Below, one piece after another: positions 3,637 to 21,115 of a stretch of 52,249 bases of DNA. The notes beneath the pieces were generated by a model, which was not told the DNA's origin, made no database searches, and saw only the letters and a program-made list of their open reading frames with translations. The stretch covers positions 1 to 52,249 of the forward strand of contig NZ_SCTW01000052.1 of assembly GCF_004322395.1 (NCBI RefSeq), in the 5' to 3' direction. This stretch comes from Methylobacter sp. GTDB lineage: Bacteria; Pseudomonadota; Gammaproteobacteria; Methylococcales; Methylomonadaceae. The first letter of the stretch is position 1; each line of letters opens with the position of its first letter. The position numbers and the translations under genes were made by a program.

Positions 3637-4585
3637 TCGACCAAAATGTACCGGGTTGCAGGTTCTCTGATTGCCCTGTTAACTGATTGTCGCTTAACTT
3701 ACGAAGCATCGTATAAATACGGCCTGCCGCCAGCTGTTCCGGTTCGCCCCAATGCTCAATACCGCCTTCGCAATAACGCTGACGCAATTTGGCTAGGGTG
3801 ATTAAATCATCTTCTTGGGTTAATGGGATGATTTTTTGCCAAGCGGCATCCGATGTACATAGCTGATTTTTAGCCTGCTTGCTGGCGTTAAAAAAGCTGT
3901 TGACCGCTTGTTTATGATCGTTTGCCCAGCTTTGCTTAAATACATAGCCCAGACTGGGCACATCCTCCTGAATGCCCAAACCTTTTAAAATACCTTTGCC
4001 GTCAATTATCTGGCGATAGCCCTGGGCTTCAAGCCGTGCAGCGAAATGCCAGTAAGTAAGAGCTGCATCCACACGGTTTTGCTTGATTTGCTCGTTGATC
4101 AGCGGCGGCGCGCCGAAGACTTTTTCTACCGACGCATTAAGGTCCAGCTGCTCTTGCCCGGCCAAGGCCTGTAGCAATAGCCAGTTTTTGTCCAACTCGC
4201 CCCCGGCAATCCCCAGACGTTTGCCTTTGAGGTCTTTCACCGAATGGATAGGACTGTCTTTTGCCACCACCAGAGCGCCCGAGGTGTTTGAATAAGGGTA
4301 AAAGGTAAAATCGGAACCGGTCGCGCGCAGCCTGGAAACCCAAATCCAGTCTGACACAATCATATCGACAGCACCGGACTGTAGCGCAATCTTGCCGGCT
4401 TCCGTATTGGCTAGATGGTGTATCTCCAGCTGAAAATCAGCTGACGGATTATCCTGTAAAGCCGTCAATTCCCAATCGACCGTGCCGGAAGCCTGAACGC
4501 CAATGCGAATAACGGTTTTTTCCGCAGCATAACTGCTGTATGACGCAAACAGGCACAGGCAGATAAAAAAGACCTTAGTTTTCAT
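3629..4585 (-). CDS. ABC importer periplasmic binding protein, NMT1/TauA-like
   Basis: A 318-residue protein with a Sec signal peptide (MKTKVFFICLCLFASYSSYA, cleavage near residue 20). The fold is that of the NMT1/TauA/SsuA family: strand IRIGVQASGTVDWEL, then VDMIVSDWIWVSRLR, then the KDSPIHSVKDLKGKRLGIAGGELDKNWL block typical of this group, then VDAALTYWHFAARLEAQGY. The SDW and ALTYW aromatics probably line the ligand site. First gene of a three-gene importer operon and divergent from the NlpC/P60 gene. Nearby mobA and fds genes make a link to molybdoenzymes or C1 metabolism tempting, but molybdate importers (ModA) look different, so this is guilt by location only. Confidence 0.82.
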   Translation of the reverse strand: MKTKVFFICLCLFASYSSYAAEKTVIRIGVQASGTVDWELTALQDNPSADFQLEIHHLANTEAGKIALQSGAVDMIVSDWIWVSRLRATGSDFTFYPYSNTSGALVVAKDSPIHSVKDLKGKRLGIAGGELDKNWLLLQALAGQEQLDLNASVEKVFGAPPLINEQIKQNRVDAALTYWHFAARLEAQGYRQIIDGKGILKGLGIQEDVPSLGYVFKQSWANDHKQAVNSFFNASKQAKNQLCTSDAAWQKIIPLTQEDDLITLAKLRQRYCEGGIEHWGEPEQLAAGRIYTMLRKLSDNQLTGQSENLQPGTFWSIE

Positions 4586-17958: not shown

Positions 17959-18348
17959 TCACCCGAATACGATAAAGCGGTCGGCTTCCAATGTGGCCTC
18001 AACCAGCTGACCCAAACCGGAAATGCGAAAACCGTCGGCCAGATCATTGTCCTGTTTGCCCTGCCGCTTGGCCTCGTCGCTACATAACAGTCCGCGCCGT
18101 TGCGCGGCGGAAATGCATACTACCAAGTCAACCTGATGCAGCCTTGCCAGTTCGCTCCATTGCGCGGTGAACTGGAGTTCGTCATCCGGCGGTGTGGCGT
18201 ATTTGAAGGCATGATAGACACCGTCGTTATAGAAAAATACCCGGAATATTTCGTGTCCAGCTGCCAAGGCGGCATTGATAAATTGATACGCCGTATATCC
18301 TGCATTGGACTGGTAAGGGCTGGCGTTAACTTGGATCGCGAATTTCAT
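17959..18348 (-). CDS. tusD: TusD/DsrE-like sulfurtransferase
   Basis: A 129-residue protein, the usual TusD length. It begins MKFAIQVNASPYQSNAGYTAYQFINAAL. The segment VDLVVCISAAQRRGLL holds a cysteine near residue 78, the position of the active persulfide Cys of TusD/DsrE. It ends GLGQLVEATLEADRFIVFG. It is the first gene of a two-gene tusD-tusC operon. The SNAGYTAYQF stretch and the active Cys favour a working sulfurtransferase. The third partner (TusB/DsrH) and TusE/DsrC are absent from this window. Confidence 0.88.
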   Translation of the reverse strand: MKFAIQVNASPYQSNAGYTAYQFINAALAAGHEIFRVFFYNDGVYHAFKYATPPDDELQFTAQWSELARLHQVDLVVCISAAQRRGLLCSDEAKRQGKQDNDLADGFRISGLGQLVEATLEADRFIVFG

Positions 18349-18395
18349 TGGGTTTTATAGTTCATTGCAGTATCAACAAGCTACGTTGAAAAATA

Positions 18396-18515
18396 GTAGG
18401 CCGGAATAAGGCCATCCAAGCGCGTAGCGCGAGGTGGTGTTTCCGACGAATTTGGATGATGTTTGCCGGAAACACCAGTTCTCGCTATCGCTCGAACCGG
18501 CTTATTCCGGCCTAC
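18396..18515. mobile_element. 120-bp MITE/REP element with 15-bp terminal inverted repeats
   Basis: Perfect 15-bp ends GTAGGCCGGAATAAG (18396-18410) and CTTATTCCGGCCTAC (18501-18515). Inside is a second perfect hairpin, GGTGTTTCC (18436-18444) with GGAAACACC (18468-18476). The interior includes GCGCGTAGCGCGAGG opposite TCTCGCTATCGCTCGAACC. There is no coding capacity, so it would be moved in trans (REP-associated transposase or related). It ends 12 bases from the hicA stop. Confidence 0.75.
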
Positions 18516-18527
18516 ATGACTGCCCAT

Positions 18528-18752
18528 TTATCGGGATAAAAACTCGGCAACGGAAATACCCGCTTGCTTCAAAATAGCACGCAAAGTGCCTTCCGGCATA
18601 TCGCCTGGATGATTGGGTATCGTTGTATAACGACTGGTGCTTGAGTTGTACCAAATCTCGTGGCTACCTGCGGCTTGCCTGTCGAATTGAAACCCTAACT
18701 GCTTTAATCGTTTGACGATTTCACGATAACAAAAACCACCCAACTGTCCCAT
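18528..18752 (-). CDS. hicA: HicA-family mRNA interferase toxin
   Basis: A 74-residue protein with the double-stranded-RNA-binding-like HicA fold: REIVKRLKQLGFQFDRQAAGSH (about 10-31), then EIWYN, then TTIPNHPGDMPEGTLRAILKQAGIS. His31 in GSHEIW is the conserved catalytic residue of HicA toxins, which cleave translated mRNAs. The ATG follows the hicB stop with no gap (TAAATG), so translation is coupled. The antitoxin comes first, the less classical but common hicBA order. The length of about 74 is typical. Confidence 0.9.
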   Translation of the reverse strand: MGQLGGFCYREIVKRLKQLGFQFDRQAAGSHEIWYNSSTSRYTTIPNHPGDMPEGTLRAILKQAGISVAEFLSR

Positions 18753-18983
18753 TTAGCTGCCCACAACCAGCGGATAATCGAATGAATCCTCAGTTTGCTT
18801 GAGATTGGAAAGTTGATGATGCTCGGCTTGCGCCTCAAGAAGCTTCTTGGCTACGTCACGCGCAATTTCCAAAGTTTCGGTTATTGTCCGTCCCTGAGCA
18901 ATCAATCCGGAAATATCGTCCGAGGTAGCTAAATAAACACCTTCAGGTAGTTTTTCAATATGAAGATTAATAATCTGTTCCAT
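18753..18983 (-). CDS. hicB: HicB-like antitoxin (DUF1902 type)
   Basis: A 76-residue partner of HicA. The pattern LPEGVYLATSDDISGLIAQGRTITETLEIARDVAKKLLEAQ (about 13-53) is that of the partial RNase-H-like HicB/DUF1902 fold, which blocks HicA. No separate C-terminal DNA-binding domain is present, as in other short HicB versions, so autoregulation may be weak or indirect. It lies directly upstream of and adjacent to hicA. The MITE on one side and AT-rich DNA on the other suggest a mobile island. Confidence 0.87.
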   Translation of the reverse strand: MEQIINLHIEKLPEGVYLATSDDISGLIAQGRTITETLEIARDVAKKLLEAQAEHHQLSNLKQTEDSFDYPLVVGS

Positions 18984-19228
18984 GCGACAAATCCTGATAA
19001 TTAATACTGTAGGAAAAAATAAATAAGTATATGGATTCTATAGGCTCATTGGTTATTGACCAAATATGTTTTCTGTCATTGCCATGTTGCCCTGTCTAGG
19101 ACGTTTTGCATTGGTTAAGCATGGCTCTCGAAAACGTTAAGAGCGGGGTTGCAACCCTTGCTCCGCCCAGGATCAGTGCTGTGTGCGAAGGGATAGGATG
19201 CATTATTCTTCGCCTCCCTGACTATAAA

Positions 19229-19280
19229 TTGACAATATTCAATTTTTTGTTGACAATAAATTCAATTAAAGTTGACCATA
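19229..19280 (+). promoter_or_regulatory. Three phased TTGACMATA direct repeats upstream of the HTH-ATPase gene
   Basis: TTGACAATA at 19229, TTGACAATA at 19250 and TTGACCATA at 19272 are spaced 21 and 22 bases apart, two helical turns. The first two are also followed by matching TTCAATT blocks. The last ends about 12 bases before the start codon. They could be operators for the HTH protein itself, and the TTGACA cores also resemble -35 boxes. Confidence 0.6.
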
Positions 19281-19291
19281 GGATTATTACT

Positions 19292-20320
19292 ATGACTAAA
19301 TTACGCAAAAGAACAGAAGAGATTCGCAAATTTATTGTTGCCAATGTAGAGCATCATCCAAAAGACATCGCTAATGTGACCGCAAAAAAATTTGATATAT
19401 CTCGTCAAGCAGTTAATAAACATATTCAAGTTTTAGTTGAGCAAAAAGATTTACAAACTAGTGGTACAACGCAAAGCAGGCATTACAGTTTGCAAGCTTT
19501 GGAACGATGGGAAAATTCTTATGCGCTGAATAAATCGCTTGAAGAGCATGTTGTTTGGCAAAATGATATTGAGCCAAGATTAGGCCAGATGTCAGAAAAT
19601 GTTATGGATATTTGGCAATATGGTTTTACCGAGATGCTCAATAATGCTATTGATCACTCATCAGGGACAAAAGTTGATATTCATCTGATAAGAACTGCCG
19701 CTAATTGCGAGATCATTATACGCGACAATGGAGAAGGTATATTCAAGAAAATCCAGCGAATCTTAAATTTAACGGACGAAAGACAGGCTTTGCTCGAATT
19801 GGCGAAAGGAAAATTAACTACCGATCCAGATAATCATAGCGGCGAAGGTATCTTTTTTTCATCACGATTGTTTGATAGTTTTTGGATTCTGTCAGGAAAT
19901 GTGTTTTATGACCATCGGCAAGAACAGGAAGTGGATTGGATTGATGAAAATGAGTTTCCTATCACTGGAACGACTGTTTCTATGCAGCTAAATAACAACT
20001 CACATCGAAATATAAAGCAGGTTTTTGATTCTTTTACAGACGAAGATTATAGTTTTGCGAAAACTGTTGTACCCGTGCGTTTAGCGCAATATGGACATGA
20101 AAAATTGATTTCCCGCTCTCAAGCAAAGCGGTTATTAGCGCGAATTGAACGCTTTAAAGTAGTTATGTTTGATTTTGAAGGCGTTGAAATGATTGGGCAG
20201 GCTTTTGCTGATGAGATTTTTCGGGTTTTTAGCAAACAGCATCCTGACGTTAAATTGAGTTACGTAAAGACCTGTCAAGAAGTTGAGCAGATGATTTCAC
20301 GGGCGGGATTTAAAAACTGA
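19292..20320 (+). CDS. HTH - GHKL ATPase - STAS-like (DUF4325) regulatory protein
   Basis: A 342-residue cytoplasmic protein with three parts. Residues 5-68 are a winged helix-turn-helix (AKKFDISRQAVNKHIQVLVE at 31-50). Residues 100-235 are a GHKL ATPase: N-box E114-M-L-N-N-A with D121-H122, G1 box D145-N-G-E-G149, G2 box S183-G-E-G186. There is no phospho-acceptor His box, so it resembles anti-sigma kinases (SpoIIAB/RsbW) more than sensor kinases. Residues 272-338 are STAS-like (VVMFDFEGVEMIGQAFADEIFRVF), matching DUF4325. It thus fuses on one chain parts that in Gram-positive partner switches are separate, plus DNA binding. I chose ATG 19292, ten bases after an AGGAT site; the 62 codons upstream look non-coding. 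It is more AT-rich than its neighbours, suggesting transfer. Confidence 0.8.
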   Translation: MTKLRKRTEEIRKFIVANVEHHPKDIANVTAKKFDISRQAVNKHIQVLVEQKDLQTSGTTQSRHYSLQALERWENSYALNKSLEEHVVWQNDIEPRLGQMSENVMDIWQYGFTEMLNNAIDHSSGTKVDIHLIRTAANCEIIIRDNGEGIFKKIQRILNLTDERQALLELAKGKLTTDPDNHSGEGIFFSSRLFDSFWILSGNVFYDHRQEQEVDWIDENEFPITGTTVSMQLNNNSHRNIKQVFDSFTDEDYSFAKTVVPVRLAQYGHEKLISRSQAKRLLARIERFKVVMFDFEGVEMIGQAFADEIFRVFSKQHPDVKLSYVKTCQEVEQMISRAGFKN

Positions 20321-20395
20321 GCTAGTCGCGCTTCTGGTACGTATGACAATACGGTGCAGGGATGTGACTTTATCGCAACTAAGACTATTAACAGC

Positions 20396-21115
20396 TCAAT
20401 CCTGCTTAATCTCATTAAAATAAAGCGTAGCGCCGATAACCGCAGCCGGAGCGACAATGATATTCAGCACTGGAATAGTCAGCCCCAACACCGCCAATCC
20501 GCCAAAACTCAATGCACCCAACCTTACGCTTTTGACCAGCTCTTTCTGTTCGGAAAATAACACACCTTGATTTTCCAGCGGATAAGCCAGATATTCCAGC
20601 GCCATGCCCCAAGCCCCGAACAGTGCCCATAAAAAAGGCGCAACGACATTGATACCCGGAATGATCGACAATATCAGCAACGGCAAGGCTCTGGTCAGCA
20701 GATAGCCCATGCGCTTCGATTCCGCAACAAGGACTTTAACCAAAGGCTGCTCAGCCGTTGCTAAAGCTTGGCCTTTTACCATCGCCAGCGTTTTTGCGGA
20801 TAATTTCCCGTAAAAAGGCGCGGCCAATATATTTGCCAGTACCGTAAAGGTGAAAAATCCAACGATAAAAAAGCTGATAAAAAACAGCGGCCATAATATC
20901 CAGCTTAACCAGCTCAGCCAGCCGGGGATAAACTGGCCGATCAAATCCGAAATATAAAAATAACCCAAGGTTAACGCGGCGCTGTACAACACTACATTGA
21001 TTAACATTGGGATGATTATAAATTTACGCAATTCCTGACTGCTCAACAGCTTCAGGCCCTTAAACAAAAAGCTAACGGCTAATACCGGATTGTTGCCTTT
21101 TTTATCAAATTGCAT
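20396..21115 (-). CDS. cysZ: CysZ/EI24-family sulfate transporter
   Basis: A 239-residue inner-membrane protein with four main hydrophobic regions and hemi-membrane hairpins typical of CysZ. Conserved features include the start LFKGLKLLSSQELRKFIIIPMLINV, the stretch FTVLANILAAPFYGKLSAKT and GINVVAPFLWALFGAWGMALEYLAYPLEN. CysZ admits sulfate for cysteine synthesis. The start overlaps the mtnA stop by 11 bases, so it is co-transcribed with mtnA, which handles the sulfur metabolite methylthioribose-1-phosphate. The pairing may reflect sulfur economy. Confidence 0.87.
   Translation of the reverse strand: MQFDKKGNNPVLAVSFLFKGLKLLSSQELRKFIIIPMLINVVLYSAALTLGYFYISDLIGQFIPGWLSWLSWILWPLFFISFFIVGFFTFTVLANILAAPFYGKLSAKTLAMVKGQALATAEQPLVKVLVAESKRMGYLLTRALPLLILSIIPGINVVAPFLWALFGAWGMALEYLAYPLENQGVLFSEQKELVKSVRLGALSFGGLAVLGLTIPVLNIIVAPAAVIGATLYFNEIKQD

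Follow-up and report, generated by a model that had tools for sequence, protein, structure and literature searches.

Partner switches such as SpoIIAB/SpoIIAA and RsbW/RsbV are protein-only anti-sigma circuits. Winged-helix autoregulators of the MarR/ArsR type act at an operator of their own promoter, which is a single palindrome. Iteron-binding plasmid initiators and centromere binders such as TubR, in turn, combine a winged helix-turn-helix (wHTH) with direct repeats beside their own gene. Here we analysed a gene of Methylobacter sp. that resembles each of these systems in part. It lies within a 52,249-nucleotide stretch of DNA, which was analysed as a whole and is referred to as the window. 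We consider it fairly probable that the gene encodes an autoregulated switch protein, that is, a self-contained, ATP-gated autorepressor. Neither the family of fused proteins to which it belongs nor the upstream repeat array of this family was described in the literature searched, which covered few subscription journals.

Results

A three-domain protein with a SpoIIAB-like fold

The reading frame is uninterrupted from its ATG and comprises the following features:

19292-20320, plus strand: coding sequence, 342 amino acids, wHTH, GHKL ATPase and DUF4325 (STAS-like) domain in this order (Pfam, alignment, AlphaFold2 model, Foldseek)
19292-19495, plus strand: winged helix domain (about residues 1-68) with SRQAVNKHIQVL as recognition helix at about 37-50 (AlphaFold2 secondary structure; weak wHTH matches; residue 38 varies with the operator word)
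19541-20014, plus strand: GHKL ATPase, residues about 84-241, with N-box E114..N118..H122, G1 box D145..G147..G149, lid about 162-182, G2 box G184..G186, and T227 (Pfam, alignment, model, fold match)
20054-20305, plus strand: DUF4325 STAS-like domain, residues about 255-338, with the invariant SRSQA (274-278) and IGQAFADE, which has Ala304 at the canonical phospho-Ser position (Pfam, alignment)

Pfam assigned residues 277-326 to DUF4325 (PF14213, 56.4 bits versus a cut-off of 23). The central part belongs to the GHKL / HATPase_c superfamily, with matches to HATPase_c (28.4 bits versus a cut-off of 26.4, residues 112-186) and HATPase_c_2 (27.6 bits versus 27.4, residues 100-198). HTH models stayed under the Pfam cut-off (HTH_11 and HTH_20, 15.4 bits each), and a profile of the family matched MarR/ArsR/IclR-type winged-helix chains of the PDB weakly (positions about 11-104, E 0.011 and up). 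An AlphaFold2 model based on alignment A1, which holds 49 of the 81 family sequences, reached a pLDDT of 88.5 and a pTM of 0.82. Its N-terminal part shows the order of a wHTH fold (helices 2-18, 26-34 and 38-50, strands 54-57 and 64-67). Among PDB structures, Foldseek matched the model best to SpoIIAB (1til, E 8.1e-6), with 1l0o also among the best; the RsbV/RsbW entry 6m36 followed at E 2.0e-3, and Hsp90/TRAP1 chains ranked between 1til and 6m36. Apart from RsbV/RsbW and SpoIIAB-complex entries, none of the 50 Foldseek matches listed was a STAS structure by name. The C-terminal part thus appears STAS-like by its Pfam family and by the strand and helix order of the model, without a separate fold match.

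Since Pfam matches, AlphaFold2 model and Foldseek ranking agree, we regard the three-domain reading as correct. This confirms an earlier note on the same DNA, which had proposed a wHTH, a GHKL ATPase and a DUF4325-like segment in one chain of 342 residues. The profile search on which that note had staked its reading matched both GHKL and DUF4325 above cut-off, and the structure prediction it had suggested gave a confident model of all three domains. Its statement that a phospho-acceptor His is absent holds as well: the dimerisation helix domain (DHp/HisKA), which carries this residue in sensor histidine kinases, was matched neither in Pfam nor in NCBIfam. NCBIfam gave weak matches only, mostly to kinase domains and far under their cut-offs. 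A PADLOC scan of the 342-residue protein returned nothing convincing (only PDLC01853 at E 0.051), and PHROG_3364, a family of unknown function, matched residues 26-239 (4.1e-14).

An invariant ATP site and a mostly lost phospho-acceptor

Eleven residues are invariant in the 49 aligned sequences (E114, N117, N118, H122, D145, G147, G149, K172, G184, G186 and T227). No variation was seen either in the stretch TEMLNNAIDHS around the N-box or in the glycines of G1 and G2; the names N, G1 and G2 box are our assignment to the conserved ATPase motifs. Because the box residues, with the roles known for them, are invariant, the GHKL domain is predicted to bind ATP, and hydrolysis or phosphotransfer would be possible.

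The column of Ala304, which we take to align with the phospho-Ser of STAS antagonists (the SpoIIAA site), contains A in 40, S in 4, G in 4 and P in 1 of the 49 fused proteins. In stand-alone DUF4325 proteins the same column is Ser in 13 of 15, a set that leaves out matches with an unplaced ORF and those whose sequence is of the fused type (L121, L127 at 3888 and L130, all lacking the Ser). On this comparison, the fused branch is mostly without the acceptor. Two marks of a partner switch are absent: Ser is found in only 4 of 49 STAS phosphorylation loops, and kinase and antagonist are fused in one chain instead of being separate proteins. The suggestion that the STAS domain is phosphorylated by its own kinase therefore finds no support at the canonical site. 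S274 and S276, located elsewhere in the DUF4325 domain, are invariant in the fused family and are possible phospho-acceptors.

A direct-repeat array precedes the gene

Immediately upstream of the start codon we found direct repeats every 21-22 bp:

19229-19236, plus strand: predicted operator unit 1, TTGACAAT, with TTGACA as -35 box in the best predicted promoter (repeat and promoter searches)
19250-19257, plus strand: predicted operator unit 2, TTGACAAT, 21 bp downstream of unit 1, with GACAAT as predicted -10 box (repeat and promoter searches)
19272-19279, plus strand: predicted operator unit 3, TTGACCAT, 22 bp after unit 2, with 12 bp from its end to the ATG (repeat search)
19229-20320, plus strand: minimal shared unit of array and ORF (nucleotide similarity to nearest relatives)

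A palindromic operator had been searched for first, as inverted dyads, and was discarded when the printed upstream sequences showed direct repeats instead. We then used a motif-blind criterion: in the 110 bp before the gene, a 10-mer had to recur after 20-23 bp with no more than one mismatch. It was passed by 62 of the 79 family loci with enough upstream DNA (17 stayed under the threshold). Among random segments taken from these loci, 4 of 395 passed, and among regions upstream of neighbouring ORFs, 20 of 787. Repeat distances peaked at 21, 22, 43 and 44 bp. In a second locus set from another collection, 19 of 21 rows passed, or 17 of 19 once the duplicate entry of one place and a protein already contained in the discovery set were removed (the count is without L086, which has the HTH only, L100 with a split frame, and L105 and L107, which lack the HTH end). 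Of 5 fused genes that are more distant and formed a small third set, 2 had the array. The array is common, but not universal, among family members.

Nucleotide similarity between the window and its nearest relatives (L002-L006) starts at -50 to -71, and its end lies at -16 to +8 relative to the stop codon. Some closer pairs share longer stretches (for example L041/L044, L066/L071 and L029/L031).

A conserved operator-like array at the own promoter, as expected of a winged-helix regulator, is thus present, with exceptions at 17 of 79 and 3 of 5 loci. The protein probably binds the upstream repeats to control its own gene. The earlier note had suggested that the protein could be a self-contained repressor, and conservation of the array together with the gene is sequence evidence in favour of this idea.

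The array overlaps a predicted promoter, and exact copies were single where detected

The best promoter-like site of the region consists of TTGACA (unit 1), a 17-bp spacer and GACAAT (unit 2), with 10 of 12 matches; promoter-like sites numbered 5 in the region versus 4.7 in shuffles. A protein bound to the units would cover both predicted boxes and thereby close the promoter of its own gene.

Searching the genome of the window for the paired array pattern, we found it at this gene only (control pattern: 0 matches). No second array was detected there even with one free base per unit: the looser pattern occurred only at the gene's two overlapping positions (its reversed control: 1 match). Two sets of further carrier genomes gave exactly one exact array in 5 of 11 and in 7 of 9 cases, with one control match in one genome of the 11-genome set. 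Each of these 12 arrays precedes a gene of the family, at 44-69 bp from its start codon. The remaining genomes (6 of 11 and 2 of 9) scored zero although they are carriers, so exact patterns overlook diverged arrays.

Operator words change while their spacing is kept

Among clades the sequence of the units differs (GTTGACAAT, CTTTACAATA, TTGTCGA, CCTTTAAGAAA) and the 21-22-bp spacing is retained. GTTGACAAT-like units occur in the clade of the window and in cyanobacteria, CTTTACAATA units in Polynucleobacter and Nitrotoga, and GTTGTCGA units at L043, L047 and L093. At four loci (L083, L096, L102 and L104), an array of CCTTTAAGAAA closes with the inverted copy TTTCTTAAAGG just before the start codon.

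By counting exact words, 75 of 99 proteins could be assigned to a word class (24 were left without class). The recognition helix starts around residue 38, which is R in all 68 TTGAC/TTTAC members, K in all 3 TTGTCG members and P or A in all 4 TTTAAGA members; shared ancestry inflates these counts. On a tree built from the rest of the protein, about six word changes were placed, and 2 of the 3 residue-38 changes fell on those branches (0.12 expected). Five of the six word changes also coincide with columns 84, 91 and 213, none of which belongs to the HTH. The covariation of word and residue 38 is suggestive of a protein that reads the array, but is not proof.

A widespread yet patchy family

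A scan of genome contigs yielded 234 relatives among 244 pattern matches, of which 80 were kept. Their ORFs comprise 329-365 amino acids in 76 cases; the other four (L030, L055, L076 and L078) are shorter, cut or broken. By record title, carriers are Methylococcales, other proteobacteria, cyanobacteria, Desulfobacterales, Planctomycetaceae, Herpetosiphonaceae, Granulicella and Nitrospirota, and the family therefore spans several phyla. Within related taxa, a full-length copy was found in 4 of 61 genomes including that of the window, and fragments in two more (G001 and G037). Of 299 genomes sampled from the phylum, 6 (the window's included) matched at E below 1e-90, and the matches in 49 others were weak and partial. 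DUF4325 of any kind occurred in 40 of 274 genomes of the class. Thus, the distribution of the gene is widespread yet patchy.

Fragments of the fused gene, consisting of the HTH end or the DUF4325 end only, were seen in relatives (L086, L087 and L127 at 3888-4133) and suggest repeated gain and decay. The fused protein had no match at E 1e-5 in the phage and plasmid collections. The search for the same architecture, which the earlier note had proposed, thus recovered a widespread fused family, and a well-characterised one was not met in the literature searched. In PMC7924643, the mention of DUF4325 / STAS-like domain terms is an annotation-table entry.

Genomic surroundings are not conserved

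The setting is AT-rich, as the earlier note had stated (GC 0.35-0.39 over the gene versus 0.40-0.55 in the rest of the 11 kb profiled). The MITE it had reported was also recovered: a 120-bp MITE-like palindrome at 18396-18515 recurs in the genome with 31 matches when both strands are counted. Five of these, among them the present copy, are nearly full-length with at least 84% identity. As for the claimed hicBA neighbour, hicA was verified (HicA_toxin, 75.8 bits) and its partner scored as DUF1902 (25.5 bits). Flanking genes encode DsrE-type and CysZ-type proteins, an IF-2B/MtnA-type enzyme and an amidohydrolase. No Rfam family was matched within 18300-20450.

The segment between dsrE and cysZ (18360-20390) is variable in the genus: it holds hicBA and the gene in the window, hicBA alone in L168, and other sequence in L154 and L158. 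In L168, which is of the same genus, hicBA occupies the same place and the gene is missing, so that hicBA is probably an incidental neighbour. A clean empty site was sought and not obtained: L155 has the window flank (19018-19086) close to cysZ, but an exact insertion junction or target duplication was not seen. This comparison used the plus strand, and 9 of 19 loci, which lie in the other orientation, gave no alignment and are uninformative. The words TTGACAAT and TTTACAAT, searched on both strands of these 19 loci, gave one single word, in L163.

We also compared the gene neighbours, a search advised by the earlier note, and nothing recurrent was found at 80 loci (L071 was not placed). The largest cluster of neighbour proteins was present at 6 of the 80. 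This lack of a recurrent neighbour is compatible with binding of a sigma factor, a further mark of SpoIIAB/RsbW-type switches. For the Pfam and PADLOC scans, 196 neighbours were counted (positions -2 to +2, 90-900 amino acids). Among the 92 adjacent proteins scanned, which are the immediate neighbours minus 5 that were partial or overlapped the focal gene, no Pfam family occurred in more than 3 and no PADLOC model in more than 2. Matches were scattered, for example type IV DinG (2), TmtA (2), GajB (1) and Drt (1). MITE and defence links look incidental, and the proposed hicBA, MITE and phage-response context is unsupported in the light of L168 and the missing recurrent neighbours.

Around the gene in Polynucleobacter (L039, L041, L042 and L044), several copies of a 40-90-bp repeat were observed. 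Beside the L042 gene, the sequence looks by eye like the 3' end of a tRNA, which would fit a tRNA-linked island.

Related ATPase and DUF4325 genes occur as split operons

A recurrent three-gene operon encodes a GHKL-type ATPase (276-371 amino acids), a DUF4325 protein (97-117 amino acids, with Ser at the STAS site) and a protein of 130-191 amino acids:

L123, 1903-3729: split three-gene operon
L125, 1902-3747: split three-gene operon
L138, 1-1986: split three-gene operon
L141, 3857-5694: split three-gene operon
L142, 3998-5644: split three-gene operon
L143, 3149-5065: split three-gene operon
L144, 2389-4315: split three-gene operon
L145, 2641-4215: split three-gene operon

The third protein has an N-terminal hydrophobic stretch in 7 of 8 operons. 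Split operons are located on plasmids, in a prophage and in a phage, and those of L142 and L144 lie near Cro/CI- or CII-type regulators. At L128, L136, L137 and L146, an ATPase next to the stand-alone DUF4325 gene was not confirmed. As in the window protein, phrog_3364 matched all 5 split ATPases scanned. The HTH profile of the family did not match any of 12 split ATPases (best E 0.39). Some split ATPases look STAS-like at their N-terminus by eye. PADLOC, run on 10 split-operon proteins, returned only DrmA (1.3e-5, L124 ATPase) and a weak Cmr5 (0.011, L138 third protein). The array was present in 0 of 11 split operons.

That is, split operons and the window protein share a related ATPase with a DUF4325 partner, but differ in that the operons have separate genes without a family HTH match, mostly keep the Ser, lack the array and reside in plasmid and temperate-phage settings. 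The split operon looks like an undescribed mobile module.

Discussion

In the autorepressor model that we favour, the winged helix would bind the 21-22-bp-spaced array just upstream of its own start codon, and several protomers would sit cooperatively on one face of the DNA. Bound units would cover the -35 and -10 boxes and block polymerase at the gene's own promoter. The GHKL domain would bind ATP, and by analogy with SpoIIAB/SpoIIAA its nucleotide state may set its contact with DUF4325, an ATP-dependent contact that could form within a protomer or between neighbours. Because both domains are in one chain and the phospho-Ser is usually gone, ATP/ADP-gated docking is likelier than phosphorylation. 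Head-to-tail packing is suggested since the repeats are direct, not inverted. Binding, repression, ATP gating and head-to-tail assembly are the parts of the model that we infer; a weakness of the model is that the benefit of an autoregulator is hard to explain if it has no second target. A more far-reaching version, which we put forward tentatively and consider doubtful, is a partner-switch module turned into a DNA-bound assembly. Protomers would line up on direct repeats two helical turns apart, DUF4325 would dock on the next ATP-loaded GHKL, and the chain would grow or break with nucleotide state. It would be an ATP-gated genetic switch of one gene, carried between bacteria along with its operator and without further targets.

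The repeats might instead be overlapping sigma-70 promoters and not a binding site of the encoded protein, with TTGACA as -35 box and, 17-18 bp further on, GACAAT/TACAAT from the following unit as -10 box. Units 1 and 2 do form a 10/12 promoter with a 17-bp spacer, the 21-22-bp period fits this need, and arrays of G-type words resemble tandem sigma-70 promoters, which could explain part of the array. Yet the words of other clades are not promoter-like (CCTTTAAGAAA; GTTGTCGAT) and the 21-22-bp array persists. Moreover, the exact array, where found, occurs once per genome and before this gene, while 0 of 11 split relatives and 20 of 787 other upstream regions have an array. Because arrays with non-promoter words exist, tandem promoters are insufficient as an explanation, and we judge them unlikely to be the right one. 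Somewhat less credible is a one-chain partner switch whose GHKL domain phosphorylates a Ser/Thr of its own or a neighbour's DUF4325, possibly S274 or S276. The SpoIIAB-like fold and the invariant E114, N118, S274 and S276 would agree with it, but the canonical acceptor is Ala in 40 of 49 fused proteins and Ser in 13 of 15 stand-alone ones. Least probable to us is an anti-phage or abortive effector, in which nucleotide pools changed by infection would lift self-repression and the accumulated protein would stop the host, for example by holding a sigma factor. A patchy distribution, a minimal conserved unit in changing surroundings and related split operons on plasmids and in temperate phages speak for such a role; PADLOC without a convincing match, no PADLOC model in more than 2 of 92 adjacent proteins and a fused protein unmatched in phage and plasmid collections at E 1e-5 speak against it.

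If the autorepressor model is true, these genes form a family of ATP-sensing repressors without description in the literature searched. Domains of the partner-switch kind have been fused to a DNA-binding domain, the phospho-Ser has mostly been lost, and the geometry of the array has been kept across several phyla. The split operons on plasmids and temperate phages suggest a wider world of GHKL-DUF4325 systems.

Compared with iteron-binding initiators and TubR, the window protein shares the wHTH and direct repeats adjoining its own gene, but it has no replication or partition domain in Pfam and no plasmid match. With SpoIIAB/SpoIIAA and RsbW/RsbV it shares the combination of a GHKL fold and a STAS-like domain, and it differs as one chain with a DNA-binding domain, with the phospho-Ser mostly replaced by Ala and no recurrent neighbour gene. 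Like the MarR/ArsR-type autoregulators, it has a wHTH fold (by a weak sequence match and by the model) and a likely operator at its own promoter, whereas the gene adds an ATPase and STAS-like module and has several direct repeats in place of one palindrome. Each single domain is already known.
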